Shown here: piece by piece, positions 2,045 through 60,233 of the stretch | How the letters are laid out: each line of letters starts with the position of its first letter | How positions within the stretch are numbered: the first letter of the stretch is position 1 | Origin: Hysterangium stoloniferum | Taxonomy: Eukaryota > Basidiomycota > Agaricomycetes > Hysterangiales > Hysterangiaceae | Reading direction: 5' to 3' | Assembly (NCBI GenBank): GCA_015178975.1 | Contig: WHVD01000058.1 | Span: forward strand, 186,001-250,000 | Length of the DNA stretch: 64,000 bases | The notes under the pieces: generated by a model | Told to the model about the DNA's origin: nothing | Seen by the model: the letters and a program-made list of their open reading frames with translations, nothing else | The model's database searches: none | Program-made: the position numbers and the translations under genes

Positions 2045-2747
2045 TGTTACGACCATGTCGCAACCCTATCGGTCCCGAGGTTATCACCACTTATCAACGT
2101 TTCAAGTCGCCATCTCGGAAACCATTGGCCCTGAAGCTGACGTATGTTTTCACACCCACATCAAAATAACTTGTATTGTCTGGTCAAACTTTTGACATGT
2201 CCCCTTTATTATGTTGATCTGTTCAACCTTATGTTTCACATATGTTTATCTATATTTGTAGTCCTTGAACTATTTCCTTTTATCGTAATTACGCTCTCGG
2301 TTATCATCGGCCTCTGAACTAATCATAAACTTCCCGTTCCTAGTCAAGCTTATTGTTAATGCCATTTTCCGCCCTTCTCCCCATTAGTATTTTCTAGACA
2401 CCTGTTACTTGTATATGAACCCACTGTAGTTGTAGTTACTAGGCAATCAGAATATCGACTCAGAACACCCTCATATGCCTGTAATAGTCTCATACTAAGA
2501 ATCCCCCCATCCGCCTCCACGTGCGCTCGCCCACTCCCGGCCCCGACCCCTTGGCCCGATGCTTGACTTGTCCTTCGGTTCCGATCGGTATCTTGCCGAA
2601 AAGAGCTCTTTAGGATTAGTCTTCGCCCGCCCGAAATCTAAGGACACCCTACGGATATTTGCGAGGGCGCAGCACATAAGCTGAAGCCAAGTCCTTCCGA
2701 TCGGTCCCTGTCGGCCACCGACATTAGTCAGTTTTCAGTTCTTAACA
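2045..2747 (+). mobile_element. solo LTR, gypsy family A
   Basis: Begins TGTTACGACC and ends CTTAACA (TG...CA). It is flanked by a perfect 5-bp target duplication CAGGG (2040-2044 and 2748-2752), so this is a solo LTR left by LTR-LTR recombination, 703 bp. It matches the LTRs of gypsy elements 1 and 4. Landmarks: TATATGAA at 2412-2419, a predicted transcript start AATCAGAATAT at 2445-2455 (33 bp from the TATA), and the shared LTR motif GCGCAGCACATAAGCTGAAG at 2668-2687. Confidence 0.92.
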
Positions 2748-2884
2748 CAGGGGGTCATAGCACTATTGAGATGATAGGCGATGGTTTCAGGGAGGTTGGG
2801 GAAGCAAGAAAATATGAAATTCTCAAAGAGCTTGGAAGGACATAGATAGATACATGTATATCATAGAGAACACAAAGAGTTGGG

Positions 2885-3163
2885 CTAGAGGCCTCCCCTC
2901 CTCTCATCTGCATCCCCCAGGAATGCGTTTCCTTCATTTTCATCTTCATCCGCACTTCTGGCTCGATCATCACGGATTAAACTGAGAGCCCGTCCAAACA
3001 CCAACATCCCACCTTCTTCATTATCTTCTTCTAGCTCATGCTCGTGCTCCGAGTCATTAGCAACTTCATTTGTATGGTCTTCTATCTCAACTGAAGCCTT
3101 CTCTGTTGTATACCTTTGTGCAATTGTTGCAGGTAGCCTTGTCACCTTTTTTCGCCCTTGCAC
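2885..3163 (-). CDS. unassigned acidic ORF
   Basis: A minus-strand reading frame of 92 codons rich in Glu/Asp/His, with a basic N-terminal stretch (GRKKVTRLP). No family is recognised. It lies between a solo LTR and a decayed retroelement and may be part of an old element or an exon. No splice partner could be assigned. Confidence 0.2.
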   Translation of the reverse strand: MQGRKKVTRLPATIAQRYTTEKASVEIEDHTNEVANDSEHEHELEEDNEEGGMLVFGRALSLIRDDRARSADEDENEGNAFLGDADERRGGL

Positions 3164-3779
3164 ATTTCTGTTTATTGGAGTTACTCAGAGCCATCAACTC
3201 AGACTGTTGAGAATCTGATTGTACCAGCCTGGGTGTTGAGACAGGGGTGAAATTGCAAGTCTATGAAAATATTAACAGCCACAAGCTGTTACAGGACATA
3301 TGAACCACCTTTACAAGTACTGTGTGGGGCTCGTTCTTCCAGAAAAAGTAGGAGAATTGGTAAGTACCTGTGAAATTTACAAGTTGGAAGTAGAGTAGGA
3401 AGCATCTCAGGGGACACCCACCTCCTCTGCTGACTGAGACAGGTGCCCTTTTGCTGTGGAAGATCCTTGCTCCTTGCTCCTCCTTGAGCTTGGGCCCTAT
3501 CCTGGAACGAGGTGAGTATGAACATACACTATGCTGTGGACAAGAAGTTACACAGGGTGCAGATCCTCGAGCACACATTGTAGGGTGTCTATAGTATGTG
3601 AAAACCACATATATAATTGTGTTAGTATTCTGTTAATGTTGTGACAATGCGAAGGATGAACAGTCAGACATCCAACATGTTGTTTGGTTGTTTGGTTCAG
3701 ATAGTGTTTGTAGACGCATTGTTTGGTTCAGATTGTTTGGATTTGTAACAATTTCCTTTTTTGGCAAATGTCATCACCT
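3164..3779. other. unassigned sequence
   Basis: Contains several short open frames on the minus strand without recognisable motifs and a TTTGGTT-rich stretch at 3682-3742. Nothing can be named. Confidence 0.3.
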
Positions 3780-4448
3780 GTGTTCGTTCAACTCTGGTGG
3801 GAGTGGAAACTGTGGATGCAATCTCTCAACTAGCAAACTGAAAATGCCATGGGAAATTGGGTCAGCCAAATTGTCATCAGAGGCAACATAGAGAGGGGAG
3901 ATAGTGTTGTTTGCAGGAAGAAGTGAAGCCACCATTCACTGCACAGAGTCATTGCATTGTAGATTCCTTGAATAACCTCGATGGAAGGCACTGATAATGC
4001 CAGTGTTGTCACCATGAATAATAAAATTAGTGTTAGAGTAAGAAAGGTGATCCAGCCAGTGCAGAGAAAGTTTGAGAGCAATGCATTCAGCCCAACCAAT
4101 GTCCCATCCATGTGATACCTGGCTATTCTCTAAACACCATGCCACCCATTTTGATCCAACAACTAGGCCAATGCCCCATGATGTAGAAGCATCAACATAA
4201 ATATCCAAGTCAAGGACAGTATGTGGCCAAAGCAAATGAGCTGGGGCTGGATGTGCCAAAGCTGCACACCACCAGTGTAAGTCATCAATTAAAGGAGGAG
4301 AAACATGATGGTGTGCAAAATTGTTGGGAAAGTGGTAAATAAATGAAGTCAATGTAACCAGATACAAATGGCCAGCTGTGAGAATGAATGTAAGGTGTTG
4401 TAATGGACCATGGAGGGAGGTCACCTCTGGCCCAGTAATTGTGGTAGC
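3780..4448 (-). pseudogene. RT-RNase H fragment, resembling a DIRS/Ngaro-type (tyrosine-recombinase) retroelement
   Basis: Minus-strand frame from 4448 downward encodes SLHGPLQHLTFI, FPNNFAHHHV and DDLHWW, the RT connection region seen in DIRS-like and related fungal elements. It continues with an RNase H-like domain: YVDASTSWGIGLVVG (first Asp), AECIALKLSLHWL (Glu) and IIHGDNTGIISAFHRGYSRN (Asp). After an in-frame TGA at about 3936-3938 it reads on with SDDNLADPISHGIFS, the closing motif of this RNase H type. The tyrosine recombinase expected downstream is not seen. The 5' part is displaced by the LTR insertion at 4449. Assignment to DIRS/Ngaro rests on motif style only; another RT lineage is possible. 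Confidence 0.55.
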
Positions 4449-4484
4449 TGTTAGGACCAGAAAGCCCACTGGGCTCCGGACCCC

Positions 4485-5221
4485 TGTTAAGAACTGAAAA
4501 CTGACTAATGTTGGTAGGCCGACGGGGACCGATCGGGAGGACTTGGCTTCAGCTTATGTGTTGTGCCCTCGCAATTATCCGTCAGGTGTCCTTAAATTTC
4601 AGACGGGTGAAGACTAGTCCTAACGAGTACCTCTCAGCAAGTTACTGATTGGAACCGAAGGATAAGTCGAGTGTTGGGCCAAGGGGTCAGGAACCGAGAG
4701 TGGGTGAGCGCACGCGAAGGCAGATAGTGGGATACTTAGTATGAGACTTCTAGAGGTGTGAGAGGGTATTCTGAGTTGATATTCTGATTGCCTAGTAACT
4801 ACAACTACAGCAGGTTCATATACAAATATTCAGTGTCTAGGAAAATACTAACTAGAGTGGAAAATGGTATTGTCAAATAAGCTTGACTAGGAATGGGAAG
4901 GTTACAATTAGTTTGGAGGCTGTGAAATAACTGAGAGCGGAATTATGAGAAAAGGAAATAGTCTGAGGGTTACAAGTATATATAGACATATGTGAAACAC
5001 AGAGTAGAAATGGATCATCATAATAAAAGGGACGTATCAGAGTCTAACCAGATAGTATGAGTATATTTTGACGTGGGTGTAAACAGAGTTTGATCACCGT
5101 GAAAGTATACATCAGCATCGGGAGACTGACAGTTTCCGATGTGATGACTTGAACGATGACTTGAATCATCGATAGGTGGCAATAAGCTTGGGGACTGTCG
5201 GGTTGCGACACAGTTGTAACA
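4485..5221 (-). repeat. 3' LTR of gypsy element 1
   Basis: Family-A LTR, 737 bp, read on the minus strand from TGTTACAACTG (5221) to CTTAACA (4485). The internal side is preceded (minus strand) by a G-rich polypurine tract AAATGGGGGGATAC. The shared LTR motif is at about 4540-4568. Confidence 0.92.
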
Positions 5222-5337
5222 GTATCCCCCCATTTGGCTGAAATCCCAAGGAGGCTGAAAATCTAGATTCCGTACGTAAAAACTTGTCGGTTATGGTTGG
5301 TGTGTCAAAACATCATGTGACTTGGTAAAAATTTACA

Positions 5338-5345
5338 TATAAAAA
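5338..5345 (+). promoter_or_regulatory. TATA box of the antisense gene (element 1)
   Basis: TATAAAAA starts 57 bp before the ATG at 5395. The equivalents in elements 2 (22292, 56 bp) and 3 (54841 on the minus strand, 59 bp) sit at nearly the same distance although the surrounding sequence has diverged. Confidence 0.65.
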
Positions 5346-5394
5346 TTTGAGGGGTACTGGTGCTTGATTTTTCACTTCTCTTCCCTCGACCACA

Positions 5395-6394
5395 ATGACC
5401 ATAGGTTCAGGGTTGAAGCCATACCCAGTTCGGTTGACAGTCGCTCCCATGTCGGTTCTGAGTGGACCATCTAGTGTGCAAGAATGTCAACGATTGCTGG
5501 AGGAGAAGAGGAAAGCATGTGAGGAGGAGGAGCAGAAGGAGAAGGAGGAGCTGGCAGCCATAGAGGCTGAGGAGAAGAAACTGGCAGTGGAAGAGGCTGC
5601 GTGTAAGCACTGGGATGCAGTGCTTACAAAGAAGAAGCAGTAGGAGGCCGATTGGGCATGAGAGGAGGCAGCAAAAAAGAAACGAGAGGGGAAAGTAAGT
5701 CAGTTCCCATCTCTTTACGAGTTTTGCTGATTTTTTTTCAGCGCAAGGCTGTGACGCCTTCGGAGTCCAATGACGAAGAGGAAGAGGAGGACGAGGAGGA
5801 TGTACCGGGGCCGTCGAGCCCCAAGGTGGGTTCGGGTTCCTAATTCTTTTCATTTTCTAATTTTTGTTTGATTATAGAAACAAAAACAGGCCCCCAAGGT
5901 GGGGCCTGAAAATGACCCTAAGTGCAACTGGTGTACTAAACAGGGTCGGACTTGCCATCCACGGGCAAGTGGTCTGGGCCACACCTGTCAAGAGTGTGCC
6001 AACCAAAAACTCGGATGTGTATTCCCAGATGTCGACGGCAATGGGTCCTATCAAGAACAACAGGCTGATGCTCTGGAAGAGCAGAACCACCTTATGCACA
6101 CCTACTTCTCAGAGCTCAGAGATGACTCAGTTCTGATTCGAAACACTGTGACAACAAGGTCTAATGACCAAGCAGTTGCGACTTTTGGGTGTTGCACTGG
6201 AGAAACAAACCAGTGTTATAGAGTCCCTTGGAGGGCAACTTGAGCAGTATTTAGAGGTGTCGAGTTGCGATGGAGTTGGGCCCGGGGTTGATGTATTGGA
6301 AAAGATCAGTGGAGAGGTGTTGGTGGCCATTGGTGAGGGGGAAGGTTTGGAAGCCGGAGAAGAAGGGGAGGTGGTAGAGGAAACCTTTAGATAA
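5395..6394 (+). pseudogene. antisense accessory gene of gypsy element 1: coiled-coil / Zn2Cys6-type protein
   Basis: Lies between the 3' LTR and the pol end and is transcribed opposite to the element. TATAAAAA starts at 5338 and ATG is at 5395. Exon 1 (5395-5694) encodes a Lys/Glu-rich coiled coil (about residues 25-80). Intron 5695-5741 (GTAAGT...CAG), exon 2 5742-5825 (starts RKAV, acidic run, ends GPSSPK), intron 5826-5877, exon 3 5878-6394. Exon 3 has six cysteines at 5923-6018 in the order C-x2-C-x6-C-x10-C-x2-C-x6-C (CNWCTKQGRTC ... CQECANQKLGC), which is exactly the spacing class of fungal Zn2Cys6 binuclear clusters. A Glu-rich, partly helical tail follows. Damage: TAG at 5641-5643, TGA at 5658-5660 and a frameshift near 6160. 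Two further copies (22348-23490 and 53818-54782) share exon order, intron positions and promoter spacing. DNA binding is inferred from the cysteine pattern only. The stop codon is tail-to-tail with pol, 88 bp apart. Confidence 0.82.
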
Positions 6395-6482: not shown

Positions 6483-7663
6483 TTATAAAGAATTTAGAGG
6501 ACCGGGTTTATTCAGATAGGCTTGATGAAACCCTAAAATGATTTCTGAGGCATTACCGAGCTCTGTAGCTAGGATCCATGAAGTTTCTTCATCTGTACCT
6601 TCATAATCAGCCCATTTAACCAAATAAAGTAATTTGCATGAGCGTCGGCGATTGTCAATTTTTGAGTCTAGGATCTCCGATATCTCGAATTCGGGTTCTC
6701 CATCAATGATCACGGGTGGAGGTGGTAGTTGTAAGTGATCCGGTATATTGTTAGCAACACAAGGTTCTAACATAGATACATGAAATACCGGGTGCACTGC
6801 ACACAGGTTGTTGGGGAGCTGAAGCATCCATGAAAGTGTGCCGGCTTGTGCTATAACTTCAAAAGGACCTAAATATTTTTCAGAGAGCTTCTTAGAGGGT
6901 CTAGTAGTTTGGAAAATCTTGGCTTTAACGAATACTCGGTCTCTGATCTTGAAATCAGGAGGCAGAAGTTGATTCTTATCCATGGACTGTTGGTATCGTT
7001 CTTGGGCCATTATGATAGTTTTACGAAGTTCTTGATGTAGCTCGTCAAGGTTTGTAATGAAGTCTTGAGCACGAGTGGATGTGAGATCGTGTTCCAGGTG
7101 GATTGCAATATTGGGGTTGTAGCCTTTGTTTGTGAAGAAAGGTTAAATGCCAGTAGTGGCATTTGGTGTGTTGTTATATGTGAATTCGGCTAGCAGTAGT
7201 AGTGATTTCCAATTGTCTTGTTGATAGTTACAATAGACATGAATGTGCTGTTCCAAAGTTTGATTCATGCATTCGGTTTGGCCATCGCCTTCTGGATGAT
7301 AGCCCAAAGTGAAGTGTAACTTCATGTCTAGTGCTTTTCCGAGTGACCTAAGAAAGTGAGAGACAAACTCGGATCCACAATCGGATGTGACATGCGACGG
7401 AACACCATGCTTGGAAAATATGTGGGTGATGAATAATTCGGCTAACTGTACAGATGTTATCATGTCATATGTTGGAATGAAAATACTTTGCTTCGTGAGC
7501 CGATCCACAACAACTAGGATTGCTGTATGACCTTCGGATGCTGGTAGGTGCTCGATGAAATCCATAGAAATCGAGTTCCAGGGTTTTTCTGGTATCAGTA
7601 ATTGTTTGAGTAGGCCATATAATTTGTGTCACTGTGATTTAGTAAACACGTTGTACAAGATTT
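6483..7663 (-). pseudogene. gypsy element 1 pol: integrase and chromodomain
   Basis: The integrase core reads on the minus strand from 7663. Catalytic residues are present: Asp in SMDFIEHL (about 7560), Asp in TSDCGSEF and Glu in GDGQTECMNQ. The last has Cys where other copies have Arg, a CpG-type change. The core stops at a TAA near 7143, where the family has a Ser codon. It resumes at 7010 with the GPY/F-like region KYLGPFEVIAQAG and a C-terminal chromodomain (LLYLVKWADYEGTDEETSW), ending at 6483. Upstream at about 7625 an SHRHK motif reads SQ*HK through CGA-to-TGA. The chromodomain is expected to guide integration toward marked chromatin in this family. Confidence 0.85.
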
Positions 7664-8292
7664 GATTATTTGGAAGGATCGGCTCACCCGATAGATGTTA
7701 TTACTGACCACAAAAATTTAGTTTACTTTTCAACCACACACCTCCTCATCCATCGGCAAGCCCGATGGTCTGAATTCCTCTCCGCTTTCAATATGGTAAT
7801 CTGCTTCCATCCCGGCCACCTTGGTGGAAAACCCAACGCTATGACTAGACAATGGGATGTCTATCCTAAAGAGGGGAGTAGTGACTACACCACAGTTAAT
7901 CCGCATAATTTCAAGCCTATGTTTTCATCAGAACAACTGTCCACATCTATCTGAGCCACTTACCTCATTCAAGTCTTGCGAAGTGTTATCCTTATGGATA
8001 CTGAAAAGTTACATCAAGATATACTATCGGCAATTCCATTAGACCCAGTCACCAAAGCACACCTTGATAACCCATCCAACCCCAATCGACCCCGATGGTC
8101 ACTAGACTCACAAGGCTTCATTAGACTTGACAACTGCATCTATGTACCGGATTCCAATACTCTTCGGCTGTGAATCCTACAACATAAGCATGACCACCTG
8201 ATCTTGGGACACTTTGGCCTCAATAAGACTCTTTCACTCATTAGAAGAGAATATACATGGCCCGGCATCCGAGATTTCATTAAGCACTATTT
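7664..8292 (+). other. inverted pol segment (RNase H end to integrase zinc finger)
   Basis: This 630-bp block encodes on the plus strand what should be on the minus strand: [37 protein letters not shown] (RNase H end) and LSLIRREYTWPGIRDFIKHY (integrase HHCC start). On the minus strand the flanks stop exactly there: FEAFKTWR just outside 8292, and KSCTTC just inside 7660. Turning the block around restores continuity with the uninverted order in element 3. This is therefore an internal inversion; an assembly error is the main alternative. Confidence 0.85.
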
Positions 8293-9455
8293 CGCCATGT
8301 TTTGAAAGCTTCAAATATTGCAAGTAGTTCTTTATCGTGAACATTGTAGTTGAGTTCGGGTGCCAAAAATGTGCGAGACAAAAAGGCTACTGGGTGTACT
8401 TCGCCATTGGTGTCCAAAATGGACAATATCACAGCAAGTGCATAATCCGAGGTGTCAGTTTCCACAATGAGTTGAACATCGGGCTTCCAGTGCAACAAAA
8501 TAGGGGCAGATATAAATGCACTTTTCAATTCTCGGAATGCTGTTCAGCATTCTTTGGAGAAATTCCATGGGGCATCTTTACGAGTAAGATGAGTGAGTGG
8601 GACGGTAATTTTTGAGTAGTTGTGAATGAAATGACAATAAAAATTGGCGAAGCCTAAAAAGGACTGAATATCCTTAACCTTTCAGGGTTCTGGCCAATCT
8701 TGAATGACTTGAATTTTGGAGTCGTCCATGTGGAGACTATCAGGTCCCATCATGAAACCTAAAGATTCAACTGTGTCGACATCAAAAGAACATTTTTTAC
8801 CATTTGCGAAAAGACCATGTTTTCGGAGTCTTTGGAGGACTTCACGAACATGTTCATCATGAAGTGTAGGATCTTCAGAGAATATGAGGATGTTGTCTAA
8901 GTACACAATGACAAAGACATTGAGGAGGTCGGAAAGACGTCATTGATAAAATGTTGAACGATGGATGGAGCGTTGGTGAGGCCGAAAGGCATCACTAACC
9001 ATTCGAAGGAGCCATAGTGAGTGCGAAAAGCCGTTTTCCATTCGTCACCTTCGGCGATCTGAACCAAATGATAGGCATGCTTGAGATCTATCTTTGTATC
9101 AAGGGGCATCGAGTAAATCAGAGATTAGTGGTAATGGGTACTTATCTTTTCAAGTGATCACATTTAGTCCTCGAAAGTTCAAAAAAAATAGGACAGGGGC
9201 TCCATAAGGAGACTTTGAGGGTCGGATAAAACCTATAGCTAAGTGTTCGTCCAAGAAATCTCAGATAGCCGATAATTCGGACTGTGAGAGAGGATAAACT
9301 GGGCCTAGGGGTGGATGTGAACCTTCTTCAATATCAATTTTCAAATCATAAAGCCTGTGAGGGGCAAGTCGATCAGCTTTTTGTTTACTGAAGACATCTG
9401 CAAATTCATGGTATTTTTCTGGAACACCTTCTAAATCTGTGATCGGTTCAGCCAC
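8293..9455 (-). pseudogene. gypsy element 1 pol: RT and start of RNase H
   Basis: Minus-strand segments in order: the protease-RT linker with [20 protein letters not shown] (9455-9261); RT palm motifs [13 protein letters not shown] and FGLTNAP (9109-8940); the active-site motif as [12 protein letters not shown] at about 8905, where YLDD is expected (second Asp replaced by Asn); the thumb LRKHGLFANGKKCSFD; and the RNase H start VETDTSDYALAVILS with HDKELLAIFEAFK (8528-8293). Frames are broken by stops between 9260 and 9110 and near 8680. A TGA follows LSAI near 9260 and is shared with element 4. The copy is dead by both frame and active site. Confidence 0.85.
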
Positions 9456-9699
9456 TGGGGATGCAAAGTGACTGGTGACTTCGTCAACTTTAAGATTGAC
9501 TGTAAATGCTCAGGAGCTGTCCAACTTGATGGCTCTCATAAAAGCTGCGGTGTTTATTAGAGAGACGGGCGGCGGAGAGCTTGGTTTTGCCATGGGGGCC
9601 AGAGGTGCTGTAGAGGCCATATTTGCCGAAACAGGCGGAAATGGACCAGTCGTATCGGGTGCCGATGGGGTTCAGAAATGGATACTGCCCAATACCCAA

Positions 9700-10097
9700 T
9701 CAATCAATGGATTGTAGTGGGTGAGCCAGTTATGTCCTAGAACCACGGCACAGCTCGGGTCCAACTGTGTTACAAAAAATGTAACTGTCTGAAAAGTTCC
9801 ACATGGGAACCGAAGTCAGAGTTTGCAGGCTTGTGAGATTATGGAGTTTGAGGTACCATTGAAGAGTTGGAGTGGAATCAGATCTATTGCATAGGTTTTT
9901 AACTGATTTTTTTGGGAAAAACTTGTATCTATAAAACAATGGGTTGAACCTGAATCTATGAGAGCTCGAAAGGTGAGACTCCCGAGGGGTTCCAAAGTAA
10001 GATTTATAAACAAGGAATTAGGATCATACAGGGTGGATGCATTAAGATGACAATTTTCTGGTGTGCGGAGAGATTCAATGCAACTCTCCAATTGCAC
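9700..10097 (-). pseudogene. gypsy element 1 aspartic protease
   Basis: Retropepsin-like domain on the minus strand: LTFRALIDSGSTHCFIDTSF at about 9990-9930 contains the catalytic D-S-G motif. It is followed by a broken region to about 9700 (GHNWL-type flap/C-terminal strand, seen intact in element 4). It processes Gag-Pol in functional relatives. Confidence 0.8.
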
Positions 10098-10114
10098 AGA
10101 ATCCAGAGAGTTGC

Positions 10115-12057
10115 TTAATCTTTTTTTGACTTGGCAGCCAGCTTAGCTGGTTGTGAGGTCGTGGCTGTATTGGCCGATCGGGCTTTTGTGGCCTTTGGGC
10201 ATGTGGCAACTCGGTGTCCAGGATCTGTGCACAACAAACAAAGGTTGTTGTCCATTTGGCATTGCTTTTCTTGTGGTAGGAGCTTGCCGTCAGAGCCAAG
10301 TTTGCCAGTTAAGTCGGGTTTGTCTTTATATTGAGACTTATTCAACTGTTTACCCTTGCCTTTTTTGTTGTTAGAACCCTTGTTTTCGGACTTCTTATCA
10401 GAGTTCGAGTTGCTACTATTGTTGGTGTTTTGATTACCAGACTTGTTGGCATTCTTATTGTCCAATGATTTTTTGTCCAATGGGTTTTCATGACTGATTT
10501 CTGAATGTCGTTCCCAGTATTGGGCATCCATGTTTTGGGCCTTTAGACGCATGAGGGGGAGAGTCTTCGGTTTGCCAGTCTCTCCTTTGGAAACTTCGTC
10601 TTTGAGGCAAGATGGGAGGCCAGAATAAAACTGGTAACGGAAGGCTGAATTGCCTGAGTCGCAACACGTGGTGTGAGAGGTATGGCGAAATACACTCAGG
10701 AAATATAGTCGGATGAGCTCTTACTATATTTCCTTTATTATTTCTATTTTCTCTCTTTTATTATATCTATAATTAGTTCGACGACCTATGTATGCGGTAC
10801 ATCGACTCTTGTGAGTGCACACATGCCAGACTTATGTATTCTAGCGCCCGTAGTTTAGAACTCAGACACTTTTTACACCGCAACCACGACTTACCCAGAC
10901 ACCCGTTAGTGTCCTGTAAGTTGTGATTGGTGTATTGTCTCGACCGTCACAGATGGGCTTTAGCTACTCATTCAAACTGAGTTTCGAACTGTATCAGTCG
11001 AAACTCAATCCTTATCTCAACTCGCGTGGACTACATCCACACTACTCTATTATTTGACTCTCTAACTACTCTACTTGCACTCGAGCAGTTGTCCAGAATC
11101 ACACTTAACCAGTCGATTCTGCTTATTCATTCTAGCTATCTACCTCACTTTAGATAGCTACTTCTCTCTACCGTATTGAACTAAGTAGTCAATACACATT
11201 CGGTCCGTATTAGACTTAGACAGTCAATACATCGTGGTATCGTACTTCAACGGTCGATATTCTTTGTATATAGAACGGTTAGAACTTCTACCACTCTTCA
11301 CACGTGGTGAGGTTGTTGAACTGGACGATGTAGTTGGTGATGCGCTGGGTGTCTTTCATTTTGAGATTAGAAAGTGCGGTTTCAGCATCGCCGGTTTGGT
11401 CATAGGGACCGAAGTTTGTTTTGAGTTCCTCAACAAAGGCATCCCAATCGTGGAGCCAGTTGGGATCTTCAGAGGTGAGGCTGGAGAATGTGGGTTCAAA
11501 CCAGGCTGCTGCGGAATCCTTAAGGTATGAGAGTGCAAAGTTTACCTTTCAGTCATCCATTGCAAAAGCAGCTGGGCAGTCCCAAAAGTTGAATTGACAT
11601 TGCATAAGGAATGTTGGCAATTTCTTCAGGTTTGAGCCAGTAAATGGTTCAGGTTTGTTGACTCAGGTTTGCCCAGGTCCTTTTTCCTTGGTATTGCTTT
11701 TAAGGAATTCATTAAGGGATCCTAGGGTACCTGAGAACAATTCCCATGTCTTGTCCGGATCGAAAGCTGGTTTTTGTTTCATGAACTTCTTAGAACCACT
11801 AGCCTGAGGTACGGGTTGGTCACCATCCTTGGGTTTGGGTTCCGGAGCTGATTGATTGTTATCCTCTGCAGGTCCTTCGGGTTCAGTTGCTTCAGTAATT
11901 TCTTCAGCATCACCGGTAATTTCCACAAAGCGGGATTCTTCAGAGGTTTCTGGTTGCGGGGTTCTCAGAGTAGCTCGGGCTGTATACAGGAAAGGAGACT
12001 GAGAGTGGAAGATTCTGCTTCGCCACTTGGCTTGGCATCTCTTTTTCTCGGAGGCAT
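10115..12057 (-). pseudogene. gypsy element 1 gag, interrupted by a solo LTR
   Basis: ATG at 12057 (MPPRKRDAKP) lies 37 nt after the 5' LTR, as in element 4. A 1-bp deletion soon after (relative to element 4) shifts the frame. The capsid-like part covers 11926-11303 (for example TWELFSGTLGSLNEFLKS) and 10671-10553. After the 631-bp solo LTR comes an Asn/Lys/Ser-rich linker and a CCHC zinc knuckle CLLCTDPGHRVATC at about 10250-10210, ending at 10115. This is the nucleocapsid/capsid protein of the element. Confidence 0.85.
10672..11302. mobile_element. solo LTR G inside element 1 gag
   Basis: 631 bp, starts TGTGAGAGG and ends CTCTTCACA (imperfect terminal inverted repeats), with a perfect target duplication CGTGG (10667-10671 and 11303-11307). 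Removing it rejoins gag in the alignment with element 4. There is no coding content and no match to LTR families A-F by eye. Orientation is not determined. Confidence 0.88.
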
Positions 12058-12094: not shown

Positions 12095-12836
12095 TGTTAA
12101 GAACTGAAAACTGACTAATGTCAGTAGGCCGATGGGGACTGATTGGAAGGACTTGGCTTCAGCTTATGTGCTATGCCCTCGCAATTATCTGTCGGGTGTC
12201 CTTAAATTTCGGATGGGCAAAGACTAGTCCTAATGAGTACCTCTCGGTGAGTTACCGATTGGAACTGAAGGATAAGTCGAGTGTCGGGCCAAGGGGTCGG
12301 GAACCGAGAGTGGGTGAGCGCACACGAAGGTGGATAGTGGGATACTTAGTATGAGACTTCTAGAGGTGTGAGAGGGTATTCTGAGTCAATATTCTGATTG
12401 CCTAGTAACTACAACTACAGCGGGTTCATATACAAATATTCAGCGTCTAGGAAAATACTAACTAGGAGAAGAGTGGAAAACGGTATTGTCAAATCCACTT
12501 GACTAGGAATGGGAAGTTACAATTAGTTTGGAGGCTGTGAAATAACCGAGAGCAGAATTCTGAGAAAAGGAAATAGTCTGAGGGTTATAAGTATATATAG
12601 ACATATGTGAAACACAGAGTAGAAACGGATAATCATAATAAAAGGGACATATCAGAGTCTAACCAGATAGTACGAGTATATTTTGACATGGGCATAAATG
12701 GAGTTTGATCACCGTGAAAGCATACGTCAGCATCAGGAGACCGACAGTTTCCAATGTGATGACTTGAATCATGACTTGAATCATCGATAGGTGGTGATAA
12801 GCTCGGGGACCATCGGGTTGCGACACGGTCGTAACA
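12095..12836 (-). repeat. 5' LTR of gypsy element 1
   Basis: Family-A LTR, 742 bp on the minus strand. TATATGAA starts at 12432 (minus) and the predicted transcript start AATCAGAATAT at 12399, 33 bp later. The shared LTR motif is at about 12150-12178. Its two LTRs differ by several substitutions and small indels, so the insertion is not recent. Confidence 0.92.
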
Positions 12837-13046
12837 ACCCCATCCTATATGCACCCAACTCTCTATATCATACCCAAGGTACAGTTACAACCAGATTACC
12901 CACTGGGACCCACACGTCACCCTATATGCACCAGTTGTCAGACTCCACTGGACCATGTCAACCTGTCTATATCTGACACTGTGTCTCATGCACCAGTCCC
13001 CCAGACTCTGCTGGACCACACATCAACCTGTTTATATCTGACTCTC

Positions 13047-22163: not shown

Positions 22164-22347
22164 GTACCCCCCTGTTAGGCCAAAGTCCCATAGAGGTGAT
22201 TAGGTACTGAGTGATTGAAGCGATGGCTGATTATTATGTGTCATGAAATTTACGCAATTCTGGAGGTGAGAGTTTTGGCTGTTGTTCTGAGTATAAAAAC
22301 TTCCAAATATTCAAATTAATGTTTTTGTTTCTTTATCCACAACTTGC

Positions 22348-23490
22348 ATGTCAATTCGTCGGCCATTATTCATCACTACCCTGGAAGATTCAGATACCAA
22401 AATTGCTGTACTTCAAAAAATGTCGAAGGTCACAGAACTTCAACAAAAACGACAAAGGATGGAGGAGTTGAAGCGATGACAGGAGGAGGAGGAAAAGGCA
22501 TTGATGCAGGAGTTGAAAGCAGCAGAAGAGGTGGAAAAACGGGAGTTGGAGTGAGCGAAGGCGGAAAAAGAAGCATGGATACGGAAAACGGTGGAGGCTC
22601 AGAAAAAGAAGGAAGAGGCGGAAAGATTACAGCAGGAGTCAGAGGTGGCAAAAAAACGTGAGGAGATAAGGGAAGGAAAGGTAAGTGCAATCCGTACATT
22701 TCCGTGGTTCCAACCGATAACTATTGGGTACAGCGAAAAGCCGTGGAGGTTGAGGTAGAGGGAGAGGCTGGACCTTCGAGTCCTAAAGTAAGTGCATCTA
22801 CAAAAGGTCGGTATTTGATTAACTTCCGAAACAGAAGCCAAAGGTCAAGGCTCCAGAATGGATGGAAGTCATCCATGACAATCCATGTTATCGATGTTCC
22901 ATACGGAATATGACATGTTGGAAACAGAAGGTAAAATGGGTGGAACTTGCTATCCCTGTGCAGTTCTTAAACTTCTGTGCACTCTCGCCTCGAAAAGGGT
23001 TCCAAAAGGTGAGAAGGCTCAGAAAACTAATGACGCGGAAAGTTCAGGAGCGGCCAAAGCTGTGGAAACTGAGGTGCCGAAAACGGATAGTACAGGCATG
23101 GAGCTCCTCAAGGACACCATTGACGCGTTGGTCTTTATTGGGACGGAAGTCATGAAAATACAGGATACACTAGATTGCCATAATGAGATCCAGGAAAAGG
23201 GTTTCCATTTGTTGATCCGGAATTTCCAGAGACAAAAAAAATTCCTGGAGAAGATAATGGTTAGCATCAGTGTTATCGCAGTATCTGAGAGATTTTCCGA
23301 TAAGGCACGGGAACAGCCTAATGATCCGTTGGCAGAATGTGTTGAAAAAAGGTGGGAGTCAGGAAATGGGCCGGAAGTATCAGAGAGTGAGGATGAAGAG
23401 GTGCAGGATATGGTGGAAAGTGCGGAGGTTGCTGATGAGATGGGAGTCGGGATGGAAAGTGGATTTGGGGTATCAGAGACTCTAAAATAG
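22348..23490 (+). pseudogene. antisense accessory gene of gypsy element 2: coiled-coil / Zn2Cys6-type protein
   Basis: Same layout as 5395-6394. TATAAAAA at 22292, ATG at 22348. Exon 1 (22348-22680) encodes a long Lys/Glu/Arg coiled coil broken by two TGA codons where Arg is expected. Intron 22681-22733; exon 2 22734-22787 (RKAV ... GPSSPK, as in element 1); intron 22788-22834; exon 3 22835-23490. Six cysteines lie at 22886-22980: CYRCSIRNMTC, then after a 1-nt deletion CYPCAVLKLLC. Restoring one base would give C-x2-C-x6-C-x10-C-x2-C-x6-C. A helical middle region and an acidic C-terminus follow to TAG 23488-23490. Sequence identity to the element-1 copy is low outside these landmarks, so the shared exon plan implies purifying selection in the past (inference). 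Confidence 0.82.
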
Positions 23491-45301: not shown

Positions 45302-45599
45302 GCTGGTGTTAGAGTATGATGATTACGATTAGTATTAAATCATACCTCGTATTGAGAATGTATTTTTCCGGTCTGGTTCACATGTGATTAGCTATATTTA
45401 GTTTAGTGTTCCCTTAGTTCCAAACCAAGTGCACAGACCATGTAGCTTAGTATATAGTTACATCCAGATGAGAGTAGGACCTCATCTGGAAACCTAGCTA
45501 TATCACCGGTTTACTTCTACCCGCTCAGTCCTTAGTGGCATTCGCTCCAAGTGCCGAGAGTCATCGCACTGTGATCCCCCAGGCTTGCAGATCCTAACA

Positions 45600-46169: not shown

Positions 46170-46511
46170 CCGAATATCATTCACTGGACAGTGGATATTC
46201 GATTAGGGGAAGGTGTTAGAGTATGATGATTACGATTAGTATTAAATCATACCTCGTATTGAGAATGTATTTTTCCAGTCTGGTTCACATGTGATTAGCT
46301 ATATTTAGTTTAGTGTTCCCTTAGTTCCAAACCAAGTGCACAGACCATGTAGCTTAGTATATAGTTACATCCAGATGAGAGTAGGACCTCATCTGGAAAC
46401 CTAGCTATATCACCGGTTTACTTCTACCCGCTCAGTCCTTAGTGGCATTCGCTCCAAGTGCCGAGAGTCATCGCACTGTGATCCCCCAGGCTTGCAGATC
46501 CTAACAGCTGG

Positions 46512-51939: not shown

Positions 51940-53617
51940 TTTTGACCTGGCTGTCTCGGTGGCAAACCCGACGCTTTAACTAGACAATGGGATGTCTATC
52001 CTAAAGAGGGGAGCAACAACTATGCTATGGTAAATTCGCACAACCTGAAACCTATTTTTACAAATCAGCAACTTACTGCATCGGTCCGCACAACTTTCCT
52101 CGTCAATCCCATTATCCGTGGAATTATCATTATGGATATTGAGAAGTTACATCAAGATATTCTATCAGCAATTCCGTCTAGACCTGATAACTAAAGCTCA
52201 CCTTGACAATCCTGTGGACCCCGATCAACCTCGGTGGTCTCTTGATCAGCATGGTTTCATTAGACTTGACGATTGGATCTATATACTGGACTCCAATGGC
52301 CTCCACCTCAGGATCCTTCAATACAAACATGATCATCCACTCTCAGGACATTTCGGGTACAACAAAACTCTATCATTAATAAGAAGAGAATATACTTGGC
52401 CTGGACTCCGTGGATTCGTTAAGCACTATTGTAAATCTTGCACTATTTGTCCCCACTCTAAATCTCACCGACACAAGCCATATGGCCTTTTGAAACAACT
52501 CCCAGTACCAGAACATCTGTGGAATTCTATCTCTATGGATTTCATTGAACACCTACTGGATTCTGAAGGCTTTTCTGCCATTCTAGTCGTTGTTGACAGA
52601 TTCTCAAAACAAGGTATATTCATCCCTACTTAAGATACAATTACGTCTGTGCAGTTAGCGGAACTTTTCATTATCCACGTATTTTCCAAGCATGGAGTTC
52701 CATCCCACATGACTTCCGATCGAGGATCAGAGTTCATCTCTCACTTCTTTAGATCCCTCGGGAAATCCTTGGACATGACATTACATTTCATGTCCGGACA
52801 TCACCCAGAAGGTGATGGACAAACCGAACGTGTCAACCAGACATTGGAACAACACCTCCATGTATATTGCAACTACCAACAGGACAATTGGAAATCCTTG
52901 TTACCACTTGCAGCATTTGCTTACAACAATGCACCTTCAGCCACTACTGGCATTTCCCCGTTCTTTGCAAATAAAGGATATAATCCAAATATTACAGTAC
53001 ATCCAGAACAAAATCTTGCCTCTGCTCACACTCAAGAGTTCACCATGGACCTCCACGAGCTCCACAAGGAACTCCAGACTGCAATACTGTCTGCCCAAGA
53101 GCAATACCAACATTCAGCGGACAAACACCCCATCCTGCCACCAAACTTCAAGATTGGCGATCGTGTTTTTGTCAAAGCTCAATTCTTCTGGACAACCCGT
53201 CCATCAAAAAAGCTTGCTGAAAAATATTTAGGTCCTTTTGAAATTATCACACAAGCAGGTTCAGTCTCTTGGACTCTACGGCTTCTGGATAGCATGCACG
53301 CGGTACACCCAGTTTTTCATGTTTCTATGCTAGAACCTTGTACTGCTAACACTATCCCGGATCGCGTGCAATCTCCGCCTCCTCTGGTCATTATTGACAG
53401 AGAACCTAAGTTTGAAATCTCACAGATTTTAGATTTAAAAATTGACAACCATCGATGCACTTGTAAACTGCTTTACTTGGTCAAGTGGGCGGGTTACGAG
53501 GGCACCGATGAAGAAACTTCATGGATTTTGGCCACGGAACTTGGTAATGCCACGGAAATCGTTACTGACTTTCATACAGCTTACCCACTCAAACCCGGAC
53601 CACTATCATCTCTCTGA
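51940..53617 (+). pseudogene. gypsy element 3 pol: RNase H end, integrase, chromodomain
   Basis: Starts in RNase H ([18 protein letters not shown]), frameshift at about 52185. Integrase zinc region with HPLSGH (H-x4-H) and CKSCTIC. Core with catalytic Asp in ISMDFIEHL (about 52540), Asp in TSDRGSEF (about 52721) and Glu in GDGQTERVNQ (about 52826). Then SEKYLGPFE-type GPY/F region and chromodomain LLYLVKWAGYEGTDEETSW, TGA near 53617. One TAA at 52630-52632 (FIPT*DTI, Tyr in element 1). Best preserved integrase among the family members here; all three catalytic acids are intact. Confidence 0.88.
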
Positions 53618-53817: not shown

Positions 53818-54782
53818 TCAGTCTATATTTATGGGACTTTGTTTTTTCCCCACTTCCTCAGCCATCTCCTCAGGGAGCTCTGCGACCTCTGTGGCAACCC
53901 CATCCTCATCTGACCCAGCATCCTCAGAACTCCCGACTTGCAGCTCTTCATACACATAGCCACCATACTCTGCCAGGAACCTCCAAAACTCCTCGCGGAG
54001 TCCGCACAGTTCCTTCGCCACCACTATGTGGACCTTGTTGCTCTTCTGGAGAAACTCATTTTGGGCCTCTATGCCCTCGGCGATCAGTCCCAGGACTTCG
54101 TCCAACCTGGAAAACCCGTCTGACCTGCTGATGTCCCATACCCCAGACCCCGCAGCCTGCTCGTGAACAAGTGAACACCTTGCCTTGAGGTGTGCACATT
54201 GGAAGCAGCCCAGACTCTGGCCAGACTTTCAATTGCATTCAGTGTTCTGGTCATTACAACCGGAACACCGCGGGTCATTCCGTGTGGGTAGGCGGACTGG
54301 CGCCGCCTTCCTTGCCTTCTGTTGATATGGTTAGTTCCACAGTATTTCCCACGGACCCGTTGCTTACCTTTTGGGGGCTCTCCGGCTCCCCCTCGGACTC
54401 GGACTCGACCTCCGTCACCCTGCACTGAAAATAACAAGTCAGTCAAAAAAAAAAAATGACAAGTCAAATTGGGACTTACCTTTCCCACGACAATTGTGGC
54501 TCTGTCCGCAGCCACCCGCGCTTTCTCCACGGCCACCCACACAGCCTCCTCCTCATCTCTCTTCCTCTGCCTCTCAGCCTCCTCTGTGGCCAATGCCACC
54601 TGGTACTCCCTGTCTAAGGCCTCTTTGGCCTCTCTGGCCTCCTTCTCTGCTTCTTCGCAAAGTTGGTGCTGCTCTTCTTGCCACACCAAGAGTTGGGCCG
54701 CACTCCAAGTCACCTGATGCGGAGTGCCCGTGGAGGGCCTGGCGGTTGGCATCACCCGTCTTGGTGTTGGCTTTGGTCCCAT
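53818..54782 (-). pseudogene. antisense accessory gene of gypsy element 3: coiled-coil / Zn2Cys6-type protein
   Basis: Third copy, antisense to the pol at 51940-53617. TATATATAAA starts at 54841 (minus), ATG at 54782. Exon 1 54782-54480 (Glu/Ala/Arg coiled coil, EEAEKEAREAKEALDREYQ), intron 54479-54425, exon 2 54424-54368 (acidic, ends ESPQK), intron 54367-54319, exon 3 54318-53818. Cysteines at 54267-54175: CSGCNDQNTEC, then CFQCAHLKARC, spacing C-x2-C-x6-C-x9-C-x2-C-x6-C. A TGA at 54231-54229 falls between the two halves (CGA-to-TGA likely). The tail has a helical region and an acidic C-terminus, as in the other copies. The exon 1 reading frame is free of stops, so this copy is the best for studying the coiled coil. 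Confidence 0.82.
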
Positions 54783-54989
54783 TTTGTCAAAGATGGGGGT
54801 AATAAAGAAGAAGAATTTCTATTTTTTCAAATTTATATATAGGCTCATCATATTTGAACCTTACCTTCCAGATCACATGACTCCTTGACACATATGTGTA
54901 ACCGACATGACTTTTGACACATGTGTAGCTGACAAGAACCATATCGAGGTCTAGAGCCTCTTTGGGACTTTGGCATAAAGGGAGGGTAC

Positions 54990-55728
54990 TGTTACGACTG
55001 GAAATCCCGCCGGACTCCGGGAACTAACTTATACACACCTGCACCCTATACACACCTGTTATCAGTTCACTGGAAAACCCACCGGACTCCGTCTCTGTCT
55101 ATTTCCAACCTCGTCCTGCGTGTCAGTCACAGGACCCCACTCAGAATACCTGACATCCCTCTAACAGAGCCCCATTCCTGTTTTAGTCAAATGACCTGTC
55201 ACAATTCGGACTCCACTCCCACTCTGTTTCCCATTATGGTTTATGATTTGTCACTATTCGGACTCCGCTCCTTTCCGTCCCATTCCTAACACCAATTTGG
55301 TGTTTACTATTCCAGTTTTATGTTTACTATTCCCGTTTTATGTTTTGCTCATTTCGTTTCATTATTACTGGATTCGGTATGACATTCACTCCATGGTCTA
55401 TTTAAACTGGCAGATGTTGTACATACAATCCAGTCAGAAAATCGGCTTAGATTCCCCCAGTAATATAATACATTTTCTGCTCTAAAACCCTACTTGATTC
55501 ACACCGCTCGCACTAGTCGGAGCCCACAGGCTCCGGCACATCTATCTCTCTCATCAATCTCAACTCACGACCCACAACCTCCGACCTATGACTACCTGAC
55601 CCACAACCCCCACCCAGACTCCCCGGGATTCCCATCCGTCCGTCTGAAATTGGACAACACGATCTAGTGAGGGTGCAGCCTACATATAAGCTGAAGCCAA
55701 GTCCTACCAGATATTCCGCGGGTTTCTT
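54990..55728 (+). repeat. 3' LTR of element 3 (family B), truncated
   Basis: Begins TGTTACGACTGG after a polypurine tract AAAGGGAGGGTAC. TATTTAAA at 55399 and AGTCAGAAAATC at 55432, exactly 33 bp. Shared motif at about 55672-55702. The last 50-60 bp are missing; sequence switches at about 55729 to Tc1 transposase. Confidence 0.85.
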
Positions 55729-59752: not shown

Positions 59753-59820
59753 AGTGGTGGTAAGGAGTCAAGGAGATGAATGAACAAAGTTCAACATGCC
59801 AAATTGATACAAATAAGGTC

Positions 59821-59967
59821 ACATGACATGTTGATGATTCACATGACATGTTGATGATTCACATGACATGTTGATGATTCACATGACATGTTGATGATTC
59901 ACATGACATGTTGATGATTCACATGACATGTTGATGATTCACATGACATGTTGATGATTCACATGAC
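59821..59967. repeat. 20-bp tandem repeat, 7.3 copies
   Basis: ACATGACATGTTGATGATTC repeated seven times without any difference, plus a partial unit ACATGAC, ending exactly at the LTR start 59968. Identical units point to recent expansion. No spacers, so not a CRISPR array. Confidence 0.95.
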
Positions 59968-60233
59968 TGTAAGGGTTCTGCTATGAAGGAGTAGCATAAT
60001 CCCTCAGAGAGCTCTTTGCAAAAGGGAACGAAATGAGTAGGACTAGGTTCCTATTCGAAAGAGACTAAGGTCACAATACAAGAGATCTACCTATTTATGA
60101 TAATAGCAGTATAGCCCCTTGCAACAAGTAAACCCCGTGAAACAAACAACTATTAGTCCAAGACACTGCCGGCCAGGCAGTCCCAGCAGCCCCAATGCCA
60201 AGTCTGCCCTAACCCAAGTCCACTACCGTTACA
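59968..60233 (-). repeat. 3' LTR of gypsy element 5
   Basis: Minus strand TGTAACGGTAG (60233) to CCCTTACA (59968), 266 bp, inverted ends TGTAA. Preceded on the minus strand by polypurine GTGGGAGGGCGGG. The 5' LTR is outside the window. Confidence 0.7.

Follow-up and report, generated by a model that had tools for sequence, protein, structure and literature searches.

Ty3/gypsy retrotransposons of the chromodomain-bearing kind (chromoviruses) in the agaricomycete Hysterangium stoloniferum (Hysterangiales) carry a third gene beside gag and pol, which lies between pol and the 3′ long terminal repeat (LTR) on the opposite strand and is interrupted by two introns. We put the probability at roughly 0.55 that this gene encodes a nuclear, nucleic-acid-binding accessory protein that regulates its own element. 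The gene came to attention in a 64,000-bp stretch of the genome assembly (contig WHVD01000058.1, here C509:186001-250000), called the window below, in which an initial annotation had described three diverged elements each bearing such a gene. The genome searched was the whole H. stoloniferum assembly (111 Mb, 554 contigs). Copies are assigned to three families, A, B and C, named after the types of window gene 3, gene 1 and gene 2, respectively. All three window copies are broken, a point absent from the initial annotation, and the case for a functional gene therefore rests on copies elsewhere.

Complete element and genomic copies

The antisense gene is part of the transposing unit. Element L069 (C1:2162600-2172400) is a recent, complete chromovirus whose 821-bp LTRs (177-997 and 7455-8275) are 100% identical, have the TG..CA ends of chromovirus LTRs and are flanked on both sides by the target duplication CAGCT. 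Between them are an open gag frame (1013-2323; Retrotrans_gag) and an open pol frame (2137-6048; 1304 residues), the latter with the Pfam domains RVP_2, RVT_1, RT_RNaseH, Integrase_H2C2 and rve in this order and, at the integrase C-terminus, a chromodomain (PF00385) scoring 27.7 bits against a cut-off of 25.1. The antisense gene of L069 is intact, with a TATA box and three exons encoding 294 amino acids: the ATG is at 7244, exon 1 measures 327 bp, exon 2 57 bp and each intron 49 bp, and the stop codon of exon 3 ends at 6262. It is flanked by pol and the 3′ LTR and runs opposite to gag and pol, the arrangement that defines the antisense open reading frames (ORFs) termed aORF-3R.

Protein searches of the genome with the exon 3 products gave at least 150 scored matches for each family (the family A query carried about 43 wrong-frame residues; nearly all of its matches start at residue 38-44, behind these residues or at their end, and one at 29). 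Counted by eye among the best-scoring 150 matches listed per family, 105 of A, 68 of B and 123 of C contain no stop codon over the length matched. Among the stops of decayed family C copies, those other than TGA are the commoner. For 56 of 150 listed matches to reverse transcriptase (RT), an exon 3 match of family A or B was found within 6 kb, and the nearest one was on the opposite strand and the 3′ side of the RT in 53 of the 56 (same strand, 2; 5′ side, 1); the remaining 94 had no exon 3 match among the A and B matches listed. Absence of the ORF from most intact relatives had been proposed as a sign against the gene; among the matches listed it is present, and open, in many relatives.

A gene finder for the three-exon structure was run on 60 loci; at 36 it found a model open over some length, at 23 it found none, and one locus was without the cysteine pattern. 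Nineteen of 30 family A loci gave an open model of at least 286 residues, including L042 with a shifted start. Nine of 11 further loci gave a model; L075 had no open model and L076 no cysteine pattern. Locus L074 encodes the full family C protein of 339 residues, and in L071-L073 the open frame begins only inside exon 1. The family B proteins have 288 (L077, L079, L081), 260 (L078) or 287 residues (L080, whose frame stays open only if an unusual acceptor is used for intron 2).

Selection and shared plan

The initial annotation proposed that selection has kept the plan of the gene, and suggested the ratio of nonsynonymous to synonymous change (dN/dS) as a check. The proposal is upheld by purifying dN/dS in an antisense gene that has introns and a TATA box at a fixed distance. 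Ratios were computed by the Nei-Gojobori method and pooled over pairs; copies were picked as open and near-copies removed, and the pairs are not independent. Family A was represented by 9 of the 19 open models of at least 286 residues. The near-copies of L040 (L041 and L042, the second also with the shifted start) and of L061 (L062-L068) were left out, as was L055, whose acceptor is shifted. Family B was represented by L077-L081, with exon 3 taken from the downstream acceptor and with L030 (frameshifted at the end of exon 3) and shorter open models omitted, and family C by exon 3 of L071-L074, L075 and L076 being without a model.

Pooled dN/dS is well below 1 in each family: 0.226 in A (95% confidence interval (CI) 0.177-0.295; 9 copies), 0.264 in B (0.190-0.354; 5 copies) and 0.227 in exon 3 of C (0.156-0.337; 4 copies). 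When the sense frame was shifted, the ratio was 0.95-1.60 in the coding sequences of A and B and 0.93-1.20 in exon 3 of C, and the antisense frame was the lowest of the six frames in all five exon sets. Third-position changes were still in excess in all five sets after CpG-type transitions had been removed, and exon 3 of the open B and C copies has stops in every frame of the pol strand. As a control, the 3′ part of pol in 7 of the 9 family A copies (L040 and L051 are missing part of pol, and 2 of the 7 have two pol stops each) gave 0.273, versus 0.244 for their antisense gene. Synonymous difference (pS) in the same 7 copies is 0.089 for pol versus 0.228 for the antisense gene; in family B it is 0.150 for pol (99 codons) versus 0.194. 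Gaps relative to L069 in the open A copies other than L042 amount to 0, 24 or 42 in exon 1, and exon 2 has none; against the same reference, intron 2 is more diverged than the exons in most copies and intron 1 about as diverged as exon 1. Judged from selection, the antisense gene is functional at the protein level, a conclusion that is firm for A and C and weaker for B.

The proteins of the three families align only in stretches of 34-116 residues with 28-41% identity. In one representative each of A, B and C, the two intron places and their phase, the junction KRKA..SP.K, all six cysteines and an acidic tail are nevertheless kept. A TATA box stands 55-60 bp from the ATG in 8 of 8 upstream regions (2 A, 2 B and 1 C copies and the three window genes), a distance that is in part built in, since the gene finder prefers an ATG with a TATA 45-80 bp upstream; the ATG was the finder's choice for the 5 copies and that of the initial annotation for the three window genes. 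All 8 regions share a block next to the 3′ LTR that includes the polypurine tract complement and GCCGAARTCCCAWAGAGGC or a close variant. Pairwise distances were compared among 14 family A copies; of 31 rows, 8 without a segment and 9 near-copies had been removed. For the antisense gene, distances correlated with the pol distances (r 0.71) and most closely with those of its own promoter (r 0.84); in neither case did any of 2000 permutations reach as high a value.

Processed, intron-free copies were considered as proof of splicing; exon-junction queries, many of whose matches came in pieces, revealed no exact intron loss among 40 scored candidate copies per family (120 in total). In one family C copy (L082, C13:410150-410650), most of intron 2 is deleted between short ACAAAAGGTC-like repeats. 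Public H. stoloniferum protein P0003 is joined at both predicted introns and P0002 at intron 1; both are gene-model predictions from decayed copies and not transcripts. The promoter next to the 3′ LTR would make an mRNA opposite to the genomic RNA. Splicing would then act on the antisense transcript alone, and transposition would use the sense RNA, where these introns are not introns; this would account for the persistence of the introns, which is expected of a gene lying antisense to the genomic RNA. Laboratory retrotransposition assays use a reporter with an antisense intron. The antisense gene would be the natural counterpart of that reporter, implying that introns in a retroelement can last if they are antisense to its genomic RNA.

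The protein and rival explanations

The predicted product consists of a charged helix, a junction resembling a nuclear signal (KRK..acidic..SPKK), a putative six-cysteine zinc cluster, a helix and an acidic tail. The six invariant cysteines make zinc binding likely, and nuclear entry may be read by eye from the basic junction. Once in the nucleus, the protein would bind nucleic acid; the most likely target is the LTR or promoter region of its own element, and the effect would be regulation of the element's expression.

Zn(II)2Cys6 regulators have the spacing C-x2-C-x6-C-x5-12-C-x2-C-x6-8-C and fold into two halves that each bind metal and contain a short helix. The spacing in families A, B and C, x2/x6/x9-10/x2/x6, is within these limits, and the likeness to the fungal Zn(II)2Cys6 factors (PF00172) extends to a predicted helix and an acidic stretch after the cluster. 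To this extent the Gal4-like, Zn2Cys6 regulator suggested by the initial annotation fits; as a class assignment it is a lead only, given PF00172 scores under the cut-off, Zn2Cys6 structures at expectation values (E) of 0.7-5 and a poor structure model. The PF00172 alignments of A and B place the first half of the motif on the second half of the profile, and only C is in native order. Protein P0004, a match at E 7.8 with the same six-cysteine plan (CWQCRHVKARCSLV versus CYQCAHLKARCSLV), scores 16.9 bits against PF00172 with its halves ordered as in A and B, and hints that the family may extend beyond Hysterangium. Exchanging the halves of the cysteine domain raised the PF00172 score only from 15.0 to 16.8 bits in A and from 13.4 to 14.6 in B and lost the match in C, which we treat as a lead and not as a result. 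Basic recognition residues are expected between the second and third cysteines of a Zn2Cys6 cluster; by eye this interval is basic in B and mixed in C, and in A it has acidic residues at the usually basic positions, in which A differs from the PF00172 factors.

A Pfam scan of the antisense protein gave no family reaching its cut-off, and NCBIfam only weak coiled-coil-type matches far under the cut-offs. The search of solved structures, one search of public protein records and one scan of viral contigs used a profile alignment in which the intron 2 junction of L080 was set by analogy with L077, with residues that L080 DNA does not give in frame. Among solved structures, Zn2Cys6 regulators appeared only at E 0.7-5, behind three unrelated matches at 0.008-0.52. 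The searches of public protein records gave only three H. stoloniferum fragments and, at E 7.8, P0004, and the viral contigs scanned yielded no relative.

Several observations count against a regulator of this kind. PF00172 scores of 15.0 (A), 13.4 (B) and 10.0 bits (C) against a cut-off of 21 fall short of membership. The AlphaFold model of window exon 3 is poor, its mean predicted local distance difference test (pLDDT) of 52.9 being too low to use; in this low-confidence model each CxxC carries a short helix, and a long one follows the pair. Clustered CGG triplets are the usual Zn2Cys6 target, and CGG pairs cluster in LTR A (z 7.0), with z of 1.1 in LTR B, 0.8 in a related window LTR at 42.4 kb and 1.4-5.1 in non-LTR controls; as a sign of binding this gave no clean result and is not specific, since the antisense gene and pol of B are clustered too and LTR B and the related window LTR are not. 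One open copy of family B, L081, is without the TATA motif where it would be expected. In exon 3, most open A copies have gaps of 0 or 21 relative to L069; L047, L051, L054 and L068 have 1 and L055 has 4. The mirror frame on the pol strand is also low in dN/dS (0.26-0.45), next after the antisense frame, because wobble positions face each other. Without L080, family B gives 0.432 (CI 0.275-0.703), overlapping a shifted frame at 0.615 (CI 0.404-1.007). The pairs with L080 are the deepest of family B (0.16-0.22) and the other four copies are close to each other; decay after insertion probably weighs more in such close pairs.

Two explanations would leave the protein functional in another role. 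It may be an anti-silencing factor opposing cytosine methylation or RNA silencing of the element by the host, as the VANC proteins of plant VANDAL transposons are anti-silencing factors; we consider this unlikely, though deserving of attention. In decayed copies of A and B, most stops are TGA, which could derive from CGA, and therefore suggest CpG-type mutation of silenced elements, probably through methylation. The wide divergence of the protein between families of one genome, in which pol keeps about 73-77% DNA identity, is what an arms race would produce, and the promoter and protein-gene distances are the best correlated (r 0.84). Selection within families is nonetheless purifying, with no sign of positive selection in the pooled dN/dS. 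Less likely still, to our mind, is a role in the life cycle instead of transcription, as a nucleic-acid chaperone or an adaptor for nuclear import of the preintegration complex. Basic and cysteine-cluster regions suit nucleic-acid binding, the three representatives all keep the basic junction unchanged, and a 2020 review, in the portion available, proposes that the antisense ORFs of plants serve in nuclear import or in other accessory functions; a separate antisense promoter, however, permits expression apart from gag-pol, which would fit a regulator better than a particle component.

The other two explanations give the protein no role in the element. An antisense transcript would complement the 3′ part of the genomic RNA, and non-coding antisense RNAs are known in other elements (PMC7264820, available portion), so that the RNA alone might matter, through duplex formation, silencing or self-limitation, with the open frame incidental. 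This is very improbable, being largely refuted by dN/dS, that is, by conservation specific to one frame and by the third-position excess. That the gene is a captured host gene or a chance ORF without function would agree with the lack of a clear relative outside the H. stoloniferum genome in protein searches, but three diverged families share intron places, promoter plan and purifying selection, which largely refutes it and leaves it the least credible of the explanations. Returning to the regulatory protein, we advance only tentatively, as clearly less probable than the general proposal, a more specific form of it: that one lineage of chromoviruses in basidiomycetes evolved a nuclear zinc-cluster regulator of its own, with the Zn2Cys6 halves in opposite order, a dedicated antisense promoter by the 3′ LTR and introns kept because they are antisense.

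Window elements and comparable systems

Coordinates, splice sites and TATA distances of the three window genes proved correct as first annotated; all introns are GT..AG and in phase 0, and the TATA boxes are placed by the upstream alignment. Gene 1 (+ strand) has a TATA box at 5338-5345, 57 bp before the ATG, followed by exon 1 (5395-5694; a predicted long charged helix with two in-frame stops), intron 1 (5695-5741; 47 bp), exon 2 (5742-5825; RKA..acidic..GPSSPK), intron 2 (5826-5877; 52 bp, with a second in-frame AG 12 bp downstream in relatives) and exon 3 (5878-6394), which contains the six-cysteine domain (5923-6018), the helix and the acidic tail and is frameshifted after about 6150. Gene 2 (+ strand) has its TATA box at 22292-22299, 56 bp before the ATG, exon 1 with two stops at 22348-22680, intron 1 at 22681-22733 (53 bp), exon 2 at 22734-22787, intron 2 at 22788-22834 (47 bp) and exon 3 at 22835-23490, with a frameshift near 22940 within the cysteine domain. 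Gene 3 (− strand) has its TATA box at 54834-54841, 59 bp before the ATG, an open exon 1 at 54480-54782, intron 1 at 54425-54479 (55 bp), exon 2 at 54368-54424 (ending in ESPQK), intron 2 at 54319-54367 (49 bp) and exon 3 at 53818-54318, where the cysteine domain (54175-54267) holds a single TGA, the only lesion of this gene. The six-cysteine spacing attributed to all three genes stands in frame in genes 1 and 3; in gene 2 the frameshift splits the domain. Across the six frames of the window, C-x2-C-x6-C-x8-11-C-x2-C-x6-C has 2 in-frame occurrences, in genes 1 and 3 (the latter with the internal TGA), and it occurred in 0 of 40 dinucleotide shuffles of the window.

The gene 1 element is complete in the window, with pol on the − strand. 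Its 3′ LTR (4485-5221, −) and 5′ LTR (12095-12836, −) are 91% alike, have TG..CA ends and are bounded by a 5-bp target duplication, ACCCC, at 4480-4484 and 12837-12841. The block adjoining the 3′ LTR that is common to A, B and C, here the polypurine tract complement and GCTGAAATCCCAAGGAGGC, is at 5222-5260 (+). The pol region (approximately 6483-10337, −) is broken, includes a stretch in opposite orientation (about 7665-8291) and faces the antisense gene with its 3′ end; its upper limit was set by correspondence to the pol of the family B element L070 (C167:18300-27900). In L070 itself, at about 1033-2676, the element's LTR and the start of its gag recur in inverted form, joined to the end of antisense exon 1. 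The sister copies L083 and L084 (C203 and C8) have the LTR there and not the inverted gag, and the arrangement looks like a single rearranged insertion, perhaps by autointegration.

In the gene 3 element, the 3′ part of pol (52649-53617, +) has a Tf2-1-like SH3 domain above its Pfam cut-off, the integrase end and the chromodomain (23.5 bits versus 25.1) being under theirs. The 3′ LTR (54990-55727, +) starts with TGTTACGAC, and its right end is disturbed by a second LTR. Elsewhere in the window are a tandem array of a 20-bp unit (TCACATGACATGTTGATGAT) with at least 6 perfect copies (59799-59987) and two identical 295-bp stretches 907 bp apart (45305-45599 and 46212-46506), perhaps the LTRs of a short non-autonomous element.

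The initial annotation knew of no description of such a gene, but plants and the fungal element Boty are known to have additional antisense ORFs in this position. No description of the present gene in basidiomycetes was found in the titles and abstract openings listed by searches of open-access literature. The kind of gene is known; what looks new is this protein family, with its introns and a domain resembling a zinc cluster. Boty of Botrytis cinerea has an antisense gene of unknown function, brtn, between pol and the 3′ LTR (Zhao et al. 2011, cited in PMC7264820, PMC8365987 and PMC4227169), and its gag-pol includes a chromodomain (PMC4227169). From the available portions of these sources, Boty is, like the present elements, a fungal chromodomain Ty3/gypsy retrotransposon with an additional antisense gene in this place; its host, unlike theirs, is an ascomycete, and the likeness of brtn is by description only. 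A figure legend in one survey of fungal chromoviruses mentions a further ORF, its function unknown (PMC2864245, in part), and the word antisense is absent from the available main text of a survey of fungal LTR elements (PMC3248453).

Plant aORF-3R genes, in the same place and orientation as the present gene, include GENE23 of maize Grande, ORF4 of Silene Retand and those of rice RIRE2 and PvRetro13 (PMC7264820, PMC11963269). As the available parts of these two papers describe them, Grande has its own upstream promoter and GENE23 reaches the nucleus, and the TRP28 domain of Retand is thought to bind DNA. The plant proteins are described there with other domains (TRP28, SMC), unlike the six-cysteine protein, and Retand, unlike the present elements, belongs to a non-chromovirus lineage. 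The word intron is absent from the main text of both papers. In layout, Grande GENE23 is comparable to the accessory regulator proposed here.

The HBZ gene of human T-cell leukemia virus type 1 (HTLV-1) is spliced, and its product has a basic leucine zipper (bZIP) fold. In having a bZIP without a zinc cluster and a promoter inside the LTR, it is unlike the present gene. HBZ is a regulator encoded in antisense at the 3′ end of its retroelement (PMC11963269, available part), and in this layout the two are comparable, with no homology claimed.

Annotation that relies on repeat masking may overlook antisense genes of this type. With purifying selection on the antisense protein, an insertion that is both recent and complete, and three diverged families of at least 150 matches each within a single genome, the H. 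stoloniferum chromoviruses make the role of such genes testable, offering natural replicates, a defined promoter and a candidate nucleic-acid-binding domain.

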